The position numbers and the translations under genes were made by a program. DNA of 64,000 nt. Origin: Thermoplasmata archaeon. Lineage in GTDB: Archaea > Thermoplasmatota > Thermoplasmata > Thermoplasmatales > Thermoplasmataceae. The notes under the pieces were generated by a model. The model searched no databases. It was not told the origin of the DNA and saw only the letters and a program-made list of their open reading frames with translations. Of the stretch, positions 55,729-59,344 are shown piece after piece (the first letter of the stretch is position 1; every line of letters starts with the position of its first letter). Where the stretch lies: assembly GCA_021797355.1 (NCBI GenBank), contig JAJZZX010000001.1, forward strand, positions 186,001 through 250,000, given 5' to 3'.

Positions 55729-55751
55729 AATGTGATTATTTATCACATTTT
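55727..55751. terminator. bidirectional hairpin between thiolase and nrdJ
   Basis: AAAATGTGAT (55727-55736) and ATCACATTTT (55742-55751) form a perfect ten-base inverted repeat with a five-base spacer. It sits between the convergent thiolase and nrdJ genes, with T-rich 3' arms on both strands. The last codons of nrdJ (Cys-Asp-Lys-stop) lie within it. A shared terminator is the simplest reading. Confidence 0.65.
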
Positions 55752-58090
55752 CCTGTGGGGCAGGCCGGATCGAATGTCGCCTCAAGCTTAAGATACTTGT
55801 CTGGGACCTTGGTAATTAGTTCTATGGTCTGCTTCTCTGCCTGAGGCTGCTTTGTCTCAATGGCCTTTTCCTTCTTCCTCGACTGCGTGCCTGAATACAG
55901 GACCTGCTCAGTCTTGCTTCTGTCCCTGTACACTGTGATTCCCTTGCAGTGAAGTTCATGTGCCATGAGGTAAGCCTTAGCTATATCCTCTGGGGTGGCG
56001 GTTGACGGAAGATTGATTGTCTTTGATACGCCGGAATCACAATACCTCTGGAAAGTTGCTTGCATGAGTACATGCCACTCAGGGTCAATTTCATGTGCAG
56101 TTACAAATATCCTCTTTATGTCGTCTGGCAGGGAAATGTCGTGAAGATTGCCGGTCTTGGCAACCTCATGCATCAGCTCCTCGCTATACAGGTTTCTGTC
56201 TCTCAGCATCTGCTCGAATATTGGATTCACCTCCATGAGCTCCTGCCCATTAAGTACGTGCCTTACAAAGGCAAGCGCAAAGAGTGGCTCTATTGAGGAT
56301 GAGCAGTTCGCTATTATTGAGATAGTTCCGGTTGGGGCAATTGTCGTTGTCGTGGAGTTTCTCATCTTGATCCCGTCCTTTTCGTAGAGGGAGCCATACC
56401 ATCCAGGGAAAACGCCCCTTTCCTCGGCCAGAATCCTTGATTCAGCATGGGATTCCTGCTCCAGAAAACTCATGACCCTCTCGCCCATCTCAAGGCCATC
56501 GCCGCTGTTGTACGGAATGCCTAAAAGCACTAGAAGATCGGCAAAGCCCATGTAGCCAAGCCCGATCTTTCTTGTGGTCCTGGCCATCTTCTCTATCTTA
56601 TCAACAGGGAATTTGTTAGCATCAATCACATCGTCCAGAAACTTTGTGGATAGCCTTATTACGTCCCTAAGGTGATCCCAGTCCACTTTTCCATCCTTTA
56701 CGAACTTGCTCAGGTTTATCGAGCCAAGATTGCAGGGCTCATAGGGCATTAGCGGCTGTTCTCCGCATGGGTTTGTCGCCTCGATCTCGGCTATGTGCTT
56801 GACAGGATTCTTCCTGTTTATCTCGTCCAGAAATATGAGACCGGGATCAGCCGTCTGCCAGGCCTTATTAATGATGGTATCCCACATGCTCCTGGCCTTG
56901 ATCCTGTTGACGATTTTCCCGCTCCTAGGACTCCTGAGTTCCACGTACTCATCAGCATCGAGCTTTTCAAAGAACTCATCTGTCATCCCAACGGAGATGT
57001 TGAAGTTGCTCAGTACAGTGTTTTCGGAGTCCTTGCTCATTATGAACTCCATTATATCGGGGTGGTCAAAGCGGAGTATCCCCATATTTGCACCCCTTCT
57101 CTTGCCGCCTTGCTTTATTACGTCTGTTGTTGTGTCAAAAATTTTCATGAAGGAGACAGGACCGGATGCCACACCCTTAGTAGAACCGACTAGATCATCC
57201 TTCTCCCTTAGCCTGGAGAATGAGAAGCCAGTACCTCCCCCGGATTTGTGTATCATGGCCTGATACTTCAGGGCATCAAATATTTCCTCTATGCTGTCTC
57301 CAACTGGAAGTACGAAGCACGCAGAGAGCTGGCCGAGCCTGGCTCCAGCATTCATCAATGTGGGAGAATTCGGGACAAACTCAAGCTTGGTCATTACATC
57401 ATAATACTGATCCATGATCTCCTGAGCAGATGTTGGTTTTGTGTGAACAAAATCAATGAATTCTTCAAATGTGCCAGTCAACTGTCCCTCGTTCTTGAGA
57501 TGGTTGAAGGCCCTTTCAAGGATTTCCATCTGAGTGGGCATCAGATTTCCCATGATTTTTCCAGACTTTGGGGTTTTGCCGGTCTTCTGGAAGTTCCTGT
57601 AATCGTAGAGGAGATTCACGATTCCAACGTGGTTTGCAACTCTCCTGAACATCTGGCTTGGAGTCTCAACAATCTTGCCATCCTCATCCTTGAGAAGGTA
57701 TCTTGCTTCCAGAGTCTTTATTGCATTTATAGATAGCTTCAGGTCATCCCTGACACCAATTCTCTCCTTTTCCTCCCTTATTGTGCGCCTCTTCTCCCTG
57801 TAAAGTATGTATGCTTTTGCAACCTCATTATATCTGTTTCCCTTTTTTGAGGAAGACATCAGAACCTGCTCTACTTTGTCCTGTATTTGCTCGACTGTGG
57901 GTTTCAGTGTTTCCTTTTCGACCTCGCTTATCACCCGGTCGGCAATTTCGTCAGCTTCTTTCATTGATCCAGCTTTGACAGAAAGCATGGCCTTGTAGAT
58001 TGCCCTTGATATCTTTGTCTTATCAAAATCAACTTCGCTGCCGTCCCTCTTTATGATCCTCTTGATCTTGTATTCATGTTCCGAAATCAT
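55736..58090 (-). CDS. nrdJ: adenosylcobalamin-dependent ribonucleotide reductase (class II)
   Basis: A 784-residue class II reductase that makes deoxynucleotides with a B12-derived radical. The N-terminal ATP-cone is at about residues 8-100 (KRIIKRDGSEVDFDKTKISRAIYKAM). The barrel contains LSACFVLPVGDSIEEIFDAL (redox Cys), HKSGGGTGFSFSRLR, ATNPCGEQPLMPYEPCNLGSINLS (radical Cys and Glu) and APTGTISIIANCSSSIEPLFA. The C terminus ACPTGKCDK provides the Cys pair that re-reduces the active site. GAGGTT before the ATG is a Shine-Dalgarno. Unlike most first genes here, it has a long structured leader, described separately. Confidence 0.95.
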   Translation of the reverse strand: MISEHEYKIKRIIKRDGSEVDFDKTKISRAIYKAMLSVKAGSMKEADEIADRVISEVEKETLKPTVEQIQDKVEQVLMSSSKKGNRYNEVAKAYILYREKRRTIREEKERIGVRDDLKLSINAIKTLEARYLLKDEDGKIVETPSQMFRRVANHVGIVNLLYDYRNFQKTGKTPKSGKIMGNLMPTQMEILERAFNHLKNEGQLTGTFEEFIDFVHTKPTSAQEIMDQYYDVMTKLEFVPNSPTLMNAGARLGQLSACFVLPVGDSIEEIFDALKYQAMIHKSGGGTGFSFSRLREKDDLVGSTKGVASGPVSFMKIFDTTTDVIKQGGKRRGANMGILRFDHPDIMEFIMSKDSENTVLSNFNISVGMTDEFFEKLDADEYVELRSPRSGKIVNRIKARSMWDTIINKAWQTADPGLIFLDEINRKNPVKHIAEIEATNPCGEQPLMPYEPCNLGSINLSKFVKDGKVDWDHLRDVIRLSTKFLDDVIDANKFPVDKIEKMARTTRKIGLGYMGFADLLVLLGIPYNSGDGLEMGERVMSFLEQESHAESRILAEERGVFPGWYGSLYEKDGIKMRNSTTTTIAPTGTISIIANCSSSIEPLFALAFVRHVLNGQELMEVNPIFEQMLRDRNLYSEELMHEVAKTGNLHDISLPDDIKRIFVTAHEIDPEWHVLMQATFQRYCDSGVSKTINLPSTATPEDIAKAYLMAHELHCKGITVYRDRSKTEQVLYSGTQSRKKEKAIETKQPQAEKQTIELITKVPDKYLKLEATFDPACPTGKCDK

Positions 58091-58107
58091 ATAGTCAACC
58101 TCATTGT

Positions 58108-58121
58108 TGGTAACGTTGCCA
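58108..58121. promoter_or_regulatory. TGGTAA-CG-TTGCCA inverted repeat before the nrdJ Shine-Dalgarno
   Basis: The 14 bases TGGTAACGTTGCCA are symmetric except for one pair. They lie about 18 bases upstream of the nrdJ ATG and just 5' of its Shine-Dalgarno on the minus strand. The half-site TGGTAA is the same as in the larger repeat at 58212-58239, which suggests one protein binding both, or a small hairpin near the ribosome site. Confidence 0.45.
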
Positions 58122-58132
58122 TTTGTTGGATG

Positions 58133-58209
58133 TTACTAAATCCTTTTATGACCCGATGTGGTCATAACTGAGAATCATTGATGACTATCAGTGTATAAGG
58201 ATTTAGTAA
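58133..58209 (-). ncRNA. candidate structured RNA (three-way junction) in the nrdJ 5' leader
   Basis: Three helices abut almost without gaps. P1 is a perfect 13 base pairs (58197-58209 with 58133-58145). P2 is an 11-pair hairpin with one mismatch (58182-58192 with 58167-58177, four-base loop). P3 is a perfect seven-pair hairpin (58160-58166 with 58147-58153, six-base loop). P2 and P3 touch directly; the other junctions are one and four bases. One P2 pair is G-U on the minus strand but A-C on the plus strand, favouring transcription with nrdJ. It does not look like the known cobalamin riboswitch. Function is unknown; cis-regulation of nrdJ is the inference. Confidence 0.6.
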
Positions 58210-58211
58210 AC

Positions 58212-58252
58212 AACATGGTAACGAGACTTTTACCATGTTTGATAATATAAAA
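58212..58252 (-). promoter_or_regulatory. nrdJ promoter with palindrome over the predicted start site
   Basis: On the minus strand a purine-rich element (GGGAAA) is followed by TTTTATATT (58244-58252), a good BRE/TATA pair. It predicts transcription from about 58223. A perfect ten-base inverted repeat AACATGGTAA-N8-TTACCATGTT (58212-58239) is centred at 58225-58226, right on that start, as expected of a repressor site. The resulting leader to the ATG at 58090 would be about 130 bases. Confidence 0.6.
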
Positions 58253-58444
58253 TTTCCCATCAGCTCTCTCAATTGTATAGCAATTCTATTTACACTATAA
58301 CTAATATCAAACTATCAATTCGTTTCAACACCCTCTTCATCAATTACAGGAAAGGTCGTAAAAGATTTTATAAAATGACGTTAATAATATGGTGCATTAT
58401 GAGTAACTTCAAATGTTAATATGAAAGATAGTGATATTTGCATC
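58253..58444. promoter_or_regulatory. upstream region of ftcD
   Basis: This AT-rich stretch is between the nrdJ promoter and ftcD. ATGTTAATATG at 58412-58422 is placed to drive a leaderless ftcD transcript starting at 58445. Another TATA-like AGATTTTATAAAATG at 58363-58377 has only a six-codon frame behind it (58399). No gene is seen. Confidence 0.45.
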
Positions 58445-59344
58445 ATGAAACTTGTGGAATGCGTACCTAACTTCAGCGAGGGGCGCAACAGAAGCATTGT
58501 CGATGAGATAGTATCAGCGATCAGCAAGGTCCCGACAGTAAAAATTCTTGATGTGGAGATGGACGAAAACCATAACAGATCAGTTGTCACATTCCTAAGC
58601 GATGCAACAACCGCTGTGGAAGCAGCATTCAATGGAATCAAGAAGGCGGGGGAACTCATAGATCTCAACCACCACAGGGGAGAACATCCTAGGTTTGGGG
58701 CTTCAGATGTCATTCCTTTTGTACCCATTTCAAATGTTACAATGAAGGAATGCGTGGACTTGGCTTTGAAACTAGGAAAGCGGGTGGGTGAGGAGCTTGG
58801 GATACCGGTATACATGTACGGTGAGGCTGCCCTAGTTGAGTCACGGCGGAATCTAGAAAACATCAGGACCAAATCATTCCAGTTTGAGCAGCTTAAGGAT
58901 GCCATAGGGACGGATCAATGGAAGCCGGATTTCGGCCCTCAACGCTTGGGAGGTGCCGGGGCAAGCATTATTGGGGCAAGAGATTTCCTGATCGCATACA
59001 ATGTTAACCTAAACACCACAGACCTGGAAACAGGGAAGAAGATCGCCAGAGCACTTCGGGCTAAAGATGGCGGGTTGACGTTTGTCAAATCGCTGGCATT
59101 TTTCCTGAAGGACAAAAACAAGGTACAGATATCCATGAACCTGACTAATTTTAGGAAGACGCCAATATACAGGGCCTACGAACTAGTAAAACTCGAGGCA
59201 TTGAGATATGGAATATCTGTGGCGGAATCTGAGATAGTTGGGCTCACCCCTCTTGATGCCATAGTTGAATCAGCATCCTTTTATCTGCAGATGAACAGCT
59301 TCAATCCTGGTCAGATACTGGAAACAAAGATGTGGGGTGAATAA
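58445..59344 (+). CDS. ftcD: glutamate formiminotransferase
   Basis: The formiminotransferase moves the formimino group from N-formimino-glutamate (from histidine) to tetrahydrofolate. The 299-residue protein has both folate-domain halves. Landmarks are KLVECVPNFSEGRN at the N terminus, HHRGEHPRFGASDVIPFVPI with catalytic His residues, LGIPVYMYGEAAL, and RLGGAGASIIGARDFLIAYNVNL. The frame begins at 58421, but homology and the TATA position favour ATG 58445. It is followed directly by the separate cyclodeaminase gene (stop and start adjoin); in vertebrates the two are fused. Confidence 0.93.
   Translation: MKLVECVPNFSEGRNRSIVDEIVSAISKVPTVKILDVEMDENHNRSVVTFLSDATTAVEAAFNGIKKAGELIDLNHHRGEHPRFGASDVIPFVPISNVTMKECVDLALKLGKRVGEELGIPVYMYGEAALVESRRNLENIRTKSFQFEQLKDAIGTDQWKPDFGPQRLGGAGASIIGARDFLIAYNVNLNTTDLETGKKIARALRAKDGGLTFVKSLAFFLKDKNKVQISMNLTNFRKTPIYRAYELVKLEALRYGISVAESEIVGLTPLDAIVESASFYLQMNSFNPGQILETKMWGE

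Follow-up and report, generated by a model that had tools for sequence, protein, structure and literature searches.

The nrdJ locus and the fold of its upstream region

The window considered here is a stretch of 64,000 nucleotides (64 kb) from a genome of the family Thermoplasmataceae, and the structured element that we describe sits in the intergenic region between two divergent genes within it. On the minus strand, nrdJ (55736–58090) encodes an adenosylcobalamin (AdoCbl)-dependent, class II ribonucleotide reductase (RNR) of 784 amino acids with an ATP-cone; the product matches NCBIfam PRK06406 at 1378 bits, and its Pfam matches comprise Ribonuc_red_lgC/lgN together with ATP-cone. On the plus strand, ftcD (58421–59344) encodes a glutamate formimidoyltransferase (NCBIfam TIGR02024, 440 bits), and the divergent ftcD/nrdJ pair is retained in many genomes of the family. 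Neither a class I small subunit nor a class III RNR was found in the source genome (95.6% complete), so that nrdJ is the sole RNR found there and thus the only source of dNTPs found. As an aside on the protein itself, nrdJ in many relatives carries an in-frame insertion at approximately residue 443, which is absent from the source-genome NrdJ (carriers: L046:3001-6456, G063, G024, G082, G061, G062, G075, G077, G079, G013, G029, G033, and G097); the insertion in L046 matches Intein_splicing and LAGLIDADG domains, and is thus an intein with a homing endonuclease.

An earlier note on this DNA had placed three abutting helices at 58133–58209, and the predicted fold of the minus strand (to which all positions below refer) contains all three of them as placed. 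The longest, which we call P2, consists of 13 perfect pairs between UUACUAAAUCCUU (58197–58209) and AAGGAUUUAGUAA (58133–58145); the other two are apical hairpins, P3 (58167–58192; 10 pairs and one U/C mismatch) and P4 (58147–58166; 7 perfect pairs). The ATG of nrdJ lies at 58090, 43 bases downstream of the element, just as the note had it. The 77-nt segment from 58209 to 58133 has a predicted folding energy of −29.8 kcal/mol (z −7.3), and 0 of 200 shuffles folded as well. Scanned in 8-nt steps on both strands with adjustment for GC content, the 64 kb yielded approximately 16,000 segments of 77 nt, among which the element shows the strongest fold. At a larger scale, the region before nrdJ shows the strongest structure among the upstream regions of 214 first genes (z −5.75, with the next at −4.06) in 450 kb of sequence, made up of the window joined to further stretches of the same genome (400 kb). 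The fold had also been described as better on the nrdJ-sense strand; this holds for the 77-nt segment (−29.8 vs −26.7 kcal/mol on the opposite strand) but not for the whole predicted leader, where the sense advantage is gone (−36.5 sense, −38.1 antisense).

The predicted fold extends well beyond the segment originally singled out. P2 continues outward through P1b, in which UGUUG (58211–58215) is predicted to pair with CAACA (58124–58128), and then through P1, in which GUUACCAU (58215–58222) pairs with AUGGCAAC (58115–58122; UGAUAAC in relatives), with one A/C mismatch in the source genome's leader. The fold thereby reaches 58222 on one side and 58115 on the other, and we regard 58222–58115 as one closed predicted structure, of which the three-way junction of the earlier note would form the top. 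Within the 5′ arm of P1 lie GUUACC and, 7 nt from where the transcript is predicted to begin, an AUG. Directly 3′ of P1 come, in order, GUUACC (58109–58114; 24 nt upstream of the nrdJ AUG), a Shine–Dalgarno-like GAGG (58099–58102; 8 nt before the AUG and outside the predicted stem), and the nrdJ AUG itself. When the source leader is folded with 40 nt of coding sequence attached, partial pairing also affects GUUACC and the nrdJ start codon.

Candidate promoters and the predicted leader

A BRE/TATA promoter model trained on first genes of the source genome identifies a distal box, GGAAATTTTATATTAT (58242–58257), at 6.5 bits (p 0.003), and a possible proximal box, AAAGGATTTAGTAACA (58131–58146), at 4.5 bits (p 0.01). 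From the distal box, transcription is predicted to start at 58222, which is the first base of P1, giving a predicted 5′ leader of 132 nt (58091–58222; start at −132). The same model assigns mostly leaderless-type TATA spacing to the first genes of the source genome. These results, together with the GAGG 8 nt before the AUG, agree with the earlier description of a leader of about 130 bases bearing a Shine–Dalgarno sequence in a genome where most first genes look leaderless. A high-scoring distal box occurs at the same place in relatives belonging to two genera (g1, that of the source genome, and g16), and the distal promoter outscores the proximal one in the source genome, G001, G003, G004, and G088. 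We see a fair probability that the nrdJ leader is transcribed.

The proximal box must nonetheless be reckoned with. It falls within the 3′ arm of P2, and it could provide an nrdJ start downstream of 58133, the outcome that the earlier note had named as fatal to its interpretation; GUUACC would overlap the start of a transcript arising there. Proximal TATA-like boxes are found approximately 22–23 nt before GTTACC in several genera (for example in G008 and G012, by hand count), and a GTTACC-like (GTTACCGA-like) element precedes nrdJ in many other genera of the family (again by hand count). The GTTACCGA-like octamer (58114–58107 in the source genome), which recurs across the family before nrdJ some 22–23 nt after a TATA-like box, is perhaps an initiator, or else an operator, sited where transcription starts. 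Possibly the proximal promoter is ancestral, and the distal promoter and the hairpin were added in g1 and g16. No paper giving Thermoplasmata start-site maps or describing an archaeal nrdJ leader was found in the openly accessible literature.

The region also holds motifs that invite other explanations, which we considered individually. Neither GTTACC nor TGATAACGTTACC is enriched in the genome over a reversed control, which argues against a genome-wide operator. The element is single-copy in the genome, and hence not a repeated or mobile element of the MITE or REP type, and no tRNA or tmRNA is present at the element. A short upstream ORF beginning at the AUG in GUUACCAUG occurs in the source genome and part of g16 and is absent from G001, G003, and G004; we accordingly do not consider it a conserved one. 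In another genus (g6: L116, L119, L121, and L126), repeated TGTGATCA/TGTGATCG motifs lie approximately 100–160 nt before nrdJ in an arrangement resembling a multi-site operator.

Conservation of the basal stem among relatives

Counterparts of P1 and of the upper stem (P1b/P2) precede nrdJ in ten genomes from two genera, comprising the source genome, G001, G003, and G004 of g1, and G019, G035, G087, G088, G089, and G090 of g16. In all ten, the sequence that runs from the distal start up to GUUACC folds into a structure closed by P1 (GUUAUCA/UGAUAAC), with 95.7% of P1 cells paired across the leaders, and GUUACC is near-invariant. P1b has counterparts in GUUG/CAAC in G003 and GUUU/AAAC in G004, with register shifts in others. 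Each of the ten leaders folds better than the mean of its dinucleotide shuffles (z −1.6 to −6.9), compared with z values of −1.0 to +0.8 for control stretches of equal length upstream of the TATA box. Across the family, 10 of 61 nrdJ upstream regions reach z < −2.5, as against 0 of the controls; among the strongly folded regions outside g1 and g16 are those of a subgroup of the genus g12, whose hairpin is a different one, rich in A/T. This long hairpin, unrelated in sequence to that of the source genome, lies right before nrdJ in L107–L110 (G074, G069, G073, and G070; z −2.1 to −3.9). The sense strand folds better than the antisense in 7 of the ten leaders, by a mean of about −2.5 kcal/mol, which leans, though not strongly, towards an RNA.

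The arms of the stem show signs of having changed together. We annealed the 5′ arm of each of four lineages with the 3′ arm of every lineage, and arms from the same lineage paired best, the identity arrangement ranking 1 among 24 permutations (with four lineages, p can be no smaller than 1/24). The rank is still 1 of 24 when the nearly invariant P1 is removed, and falls to 11 for control stretches; the one exception is an off-diagonal value in the D column that beats D's own. The 5′ arms of the source genome, G003, and G088 align by hand without gaps over their first 24 nt, although MAFFT places gaps beyond column 18 in the G003 arm. Considered column by column, 93% of cells are paired, compared with 21–57% for slid partners. 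Covariation at this level is weak, as judged from the aligned leaders: a single pair shows a double change (in P1, from U-A to C-G), a result reached by 49 of 500 shuffles, and RNAalifold finds P1 as the sole helix in the ten leaders, with a covariation term of 0. The earlier note had proposed compensatory changes in all three helices as support; they are suggested for the basal helix system alone, and the two apical hairpins are not shared.

Indeed, the apical parts of the ten leaders cannot be aligned, with two hairpins in the source genome, one each in G088 and G003, and none in G087. Because the apical parts of relatives do not align, the three-way junction is, from these comparisons, a feature of the source species, and its apical hairpins are species-specific; what proves to be shared is the stem beneath it. 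The strand between P2 and P1 (CAUCCAACAAA) is similar in the source genome and part of g16 (CATCCAACAAA, CATCCAAGAGA, and CCTCCAAGAGA). In the genus g13, the 3′ block (TACCTCTAACAGATCGCAA-GTTACCGAC) is conserved and the P2-to-P1 strand nearly present, while the P1 and P2 pairs are broken. DNA BLAST against 60 relatives recovered short, weak pieces only. A covariance model built from the ten leaders, searched against 77 family genomes, matched nothing but nrdJ leaders at E < 0.02: the ten from which it was built, two from g13, and that of G097 (E 0.016). Judged by this search, the structured element is the leader of nrdJ alone and no general element.

No Rfam family accounts for it. Searches with the Rfam 15 families gave no match at gathering score in the 64-kb window or in 17 relatives, and the hits obtained at relaxed thresholds were far below the gathering scores. 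The cobalamin riboswitch model RF00174 is unmatched at the gathering score in the window and in 41 family genomes; relaxing the threshold to E up to 5 in the window and to E up to 1 in the 17 relatives likewise gave nothing. The earlier note had recognised no cobalamin-riboswitch consensus either. A conserved aptamer core, in the form of junction or loop nucleotides common to the homologues, was not found, the apical domain being unalignable and missing in G087.

Interpretation and comparison with known systems

The strength of the fold, its recurrence in ten genomes of two genera, and the complementarity of its arms through sequence change are results of direct computation. On these sequence comparisons, the structured leader is genuine and conserved in part, its top being peculiar to the species, and it is no established riboswitch. 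Of the earlier interpretation, then, a structured predicted leader of about 130 nt, whose pairing shows signs of conservation, survives; a conserved three-way junction and a small-molecule riboswitch are not supported.

The existence of the RNA, its start, and its role are inferred. The reading that we prefer, and consider about evenly balanced between right and wrong, is that transcription from the distal promoter yields a leader with a 5′-terminal hairpin, which masks the leader while presenting GUUACC, the Shine–Dalgarno sequence, and the AUG. The nrdJ transcript would start at the first base of P1 (58222), and P1, P1b, and P2 would close most of the leader (58222–58115) into one long hairpin ending directly before GUUACC; in the source species, the tip of the hairpin would branch into two further hairpins, yielding the three-way junction. 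Such a hairpin would take the long leader, including the AUG 7 nt from its 5′ end, out of play, with a short single-stranded stretch at the 5′ side left ahead of the nrdJ start; translation of the long transcript might then resemble that of a short or leaderless mRNA. Pairing of the 5′ end may also make the mRNA more stable, and the apical part would be free to vary. Counting against this reading, the early AUG is lacking in G001, G003, and G004, and GUUACC and the nrdJ AUG take some part in pairing when the start of the gene is included in the source leader's fold.

The most serious competitor, possible though on our assessment unlikely, places the element at the level of DNA: nrdJ would be transcribed from the proximal promoter (TTTAGTA, with a start within GTTACC and a short leader), and the repeat would bind a regulator or serve divergent transcription, either as an operator or as the core promoter copied in inverted orientation (GGATTTAGTAA...TGGCAAC vs GGATTTAGTAA...TGGTAAC on the other strand). 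If the proximal promoter alone were used, the hairpin would be DNA, and the earlier interpretation would fall with it. The proximal boxes and GTTACC-like elements of other genera fit this reading, as do the g13 sequences, which keep the 3′ block without the 5′ arm, and the source leader, which as a whole folds as well antisense as sense. A fixed operator, however, would not be expected to have arms that change between lineages and yet stay complementary to their own partners; moreover, the repeat is single-copy, GTTACC is not enriched, and in the five genomes named above the distal promoter scores higher. What favours RNA is that the start predicted from the distal promoter falls exactly at the base of the stem and that arm complementarity is lineage-specific. 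The same behaviour of the arms, the structure in 10 of 10 leaders relative to controls, and the lack of a second copy in the genome make it very improbable that we are looking at a neutral palindrome or a functionless mobile-element remnant, even though the apical part is seen in the source species only and divergence is fast.

Regulatory versions of an RNA leader fare less well than the masking hairpin. A protein-bound or antisense-responsive leader, controlling nrdJ translation or mRNA decay through a putative site made up of the basal stem and CAUCCAACAAA, is suggested by the P2-to-P1 strand, which the source genome shares in similar form with part of g16 and nearly with g13, but that strand could equally be conserved as promoter DNA, and the Shine–Dalgarno sequence is exposed in the predicted fold; we consider this reading improbable. 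Sequestration of the Shine–Dalgarno sequence was rejected on similar grounds: the predicted folds leave its region largely unpaired in most of the ten leaders, and there is therefore no sign of a resting OFF state. The riboswitch for AdoCbl, dATP, or ATP proposed in the earlier note is suggested by its location before a B12-dependent, nucleotide-regulated enzyme and by the three-way junction of the source genome. Against it stand a junction and hairpins that are unconserved even within the genus, the loss of the apical domain in G087, the absence of Rfam matches in the window and 17 relatives and of RF00174 in the 41 family genomes, and the exposed Shine–Dalgarno sequence. In addition, an OFF switch responding to AdoCbl would presumably be self-defeating, since nrdJ is the only RNR found and turning it off would remove the only dNTP source found. 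We therefore give the riboswitch scarcely any credence. The broadest proposal, of a new kind of regulatory leader RNA in archaea by which the sole RNR would be controlled upon a protein or metabolite trigger, through the basal stem and the conserved strand between P2 and P1-GUUACC, with an apical domain that evolves freely and a stem from the first transcribed base, strikes us as rather unlikely.

To our knowledge, few structured mRNA leaders have been described from archaea, least of all from Thermoplasmata, a group with mostly leaderless-looking genes. If the masking-hairpin reading is true, a leader folded from the first nucleotide on, upstream of the only RNR found, would suggest how a long leader fits translation of the leaderless type, and would offer a handle on the control of DNA precursor supply in these archaea. 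Among systems with which the nrdJ leader may be compared, the cobalamin riboswitch RF00174 is likewise an RNA leader of a ribonucleotide reductase gene; in Streptomyces, according to PMC4991794, which cites Borovok 2006, the known B12 riboswitch sits before the class Ia genes nrdABS, and so controls a class Ia enzyme, in contrast to the nrdJ leader with neither an RF00174 match nor a conserved aptamer-like core. The nrdJ region also recalls archaeal tandem promoters and inverted-repeat operators, in that it has a pair of TATA-like boxes with GTTACC after each and an inverted repeat spanning one of the boxes, but the arms of the nrdJ repeat vary between lineages while remaining complementary. 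Structured 5′ UTRs of prokaryotic mRNAs, with their long leader hairpins, are similar in that a stable helix separates the mRNA start from the ribosome binding site of a single gene and that its pairing is apparently retained; the nrdJ leader differs in matching no Rfam family and in the predicted position of its stem, which would start with the first nucleotide of the transcript in a genome with mostly leaderless-looking first genes.
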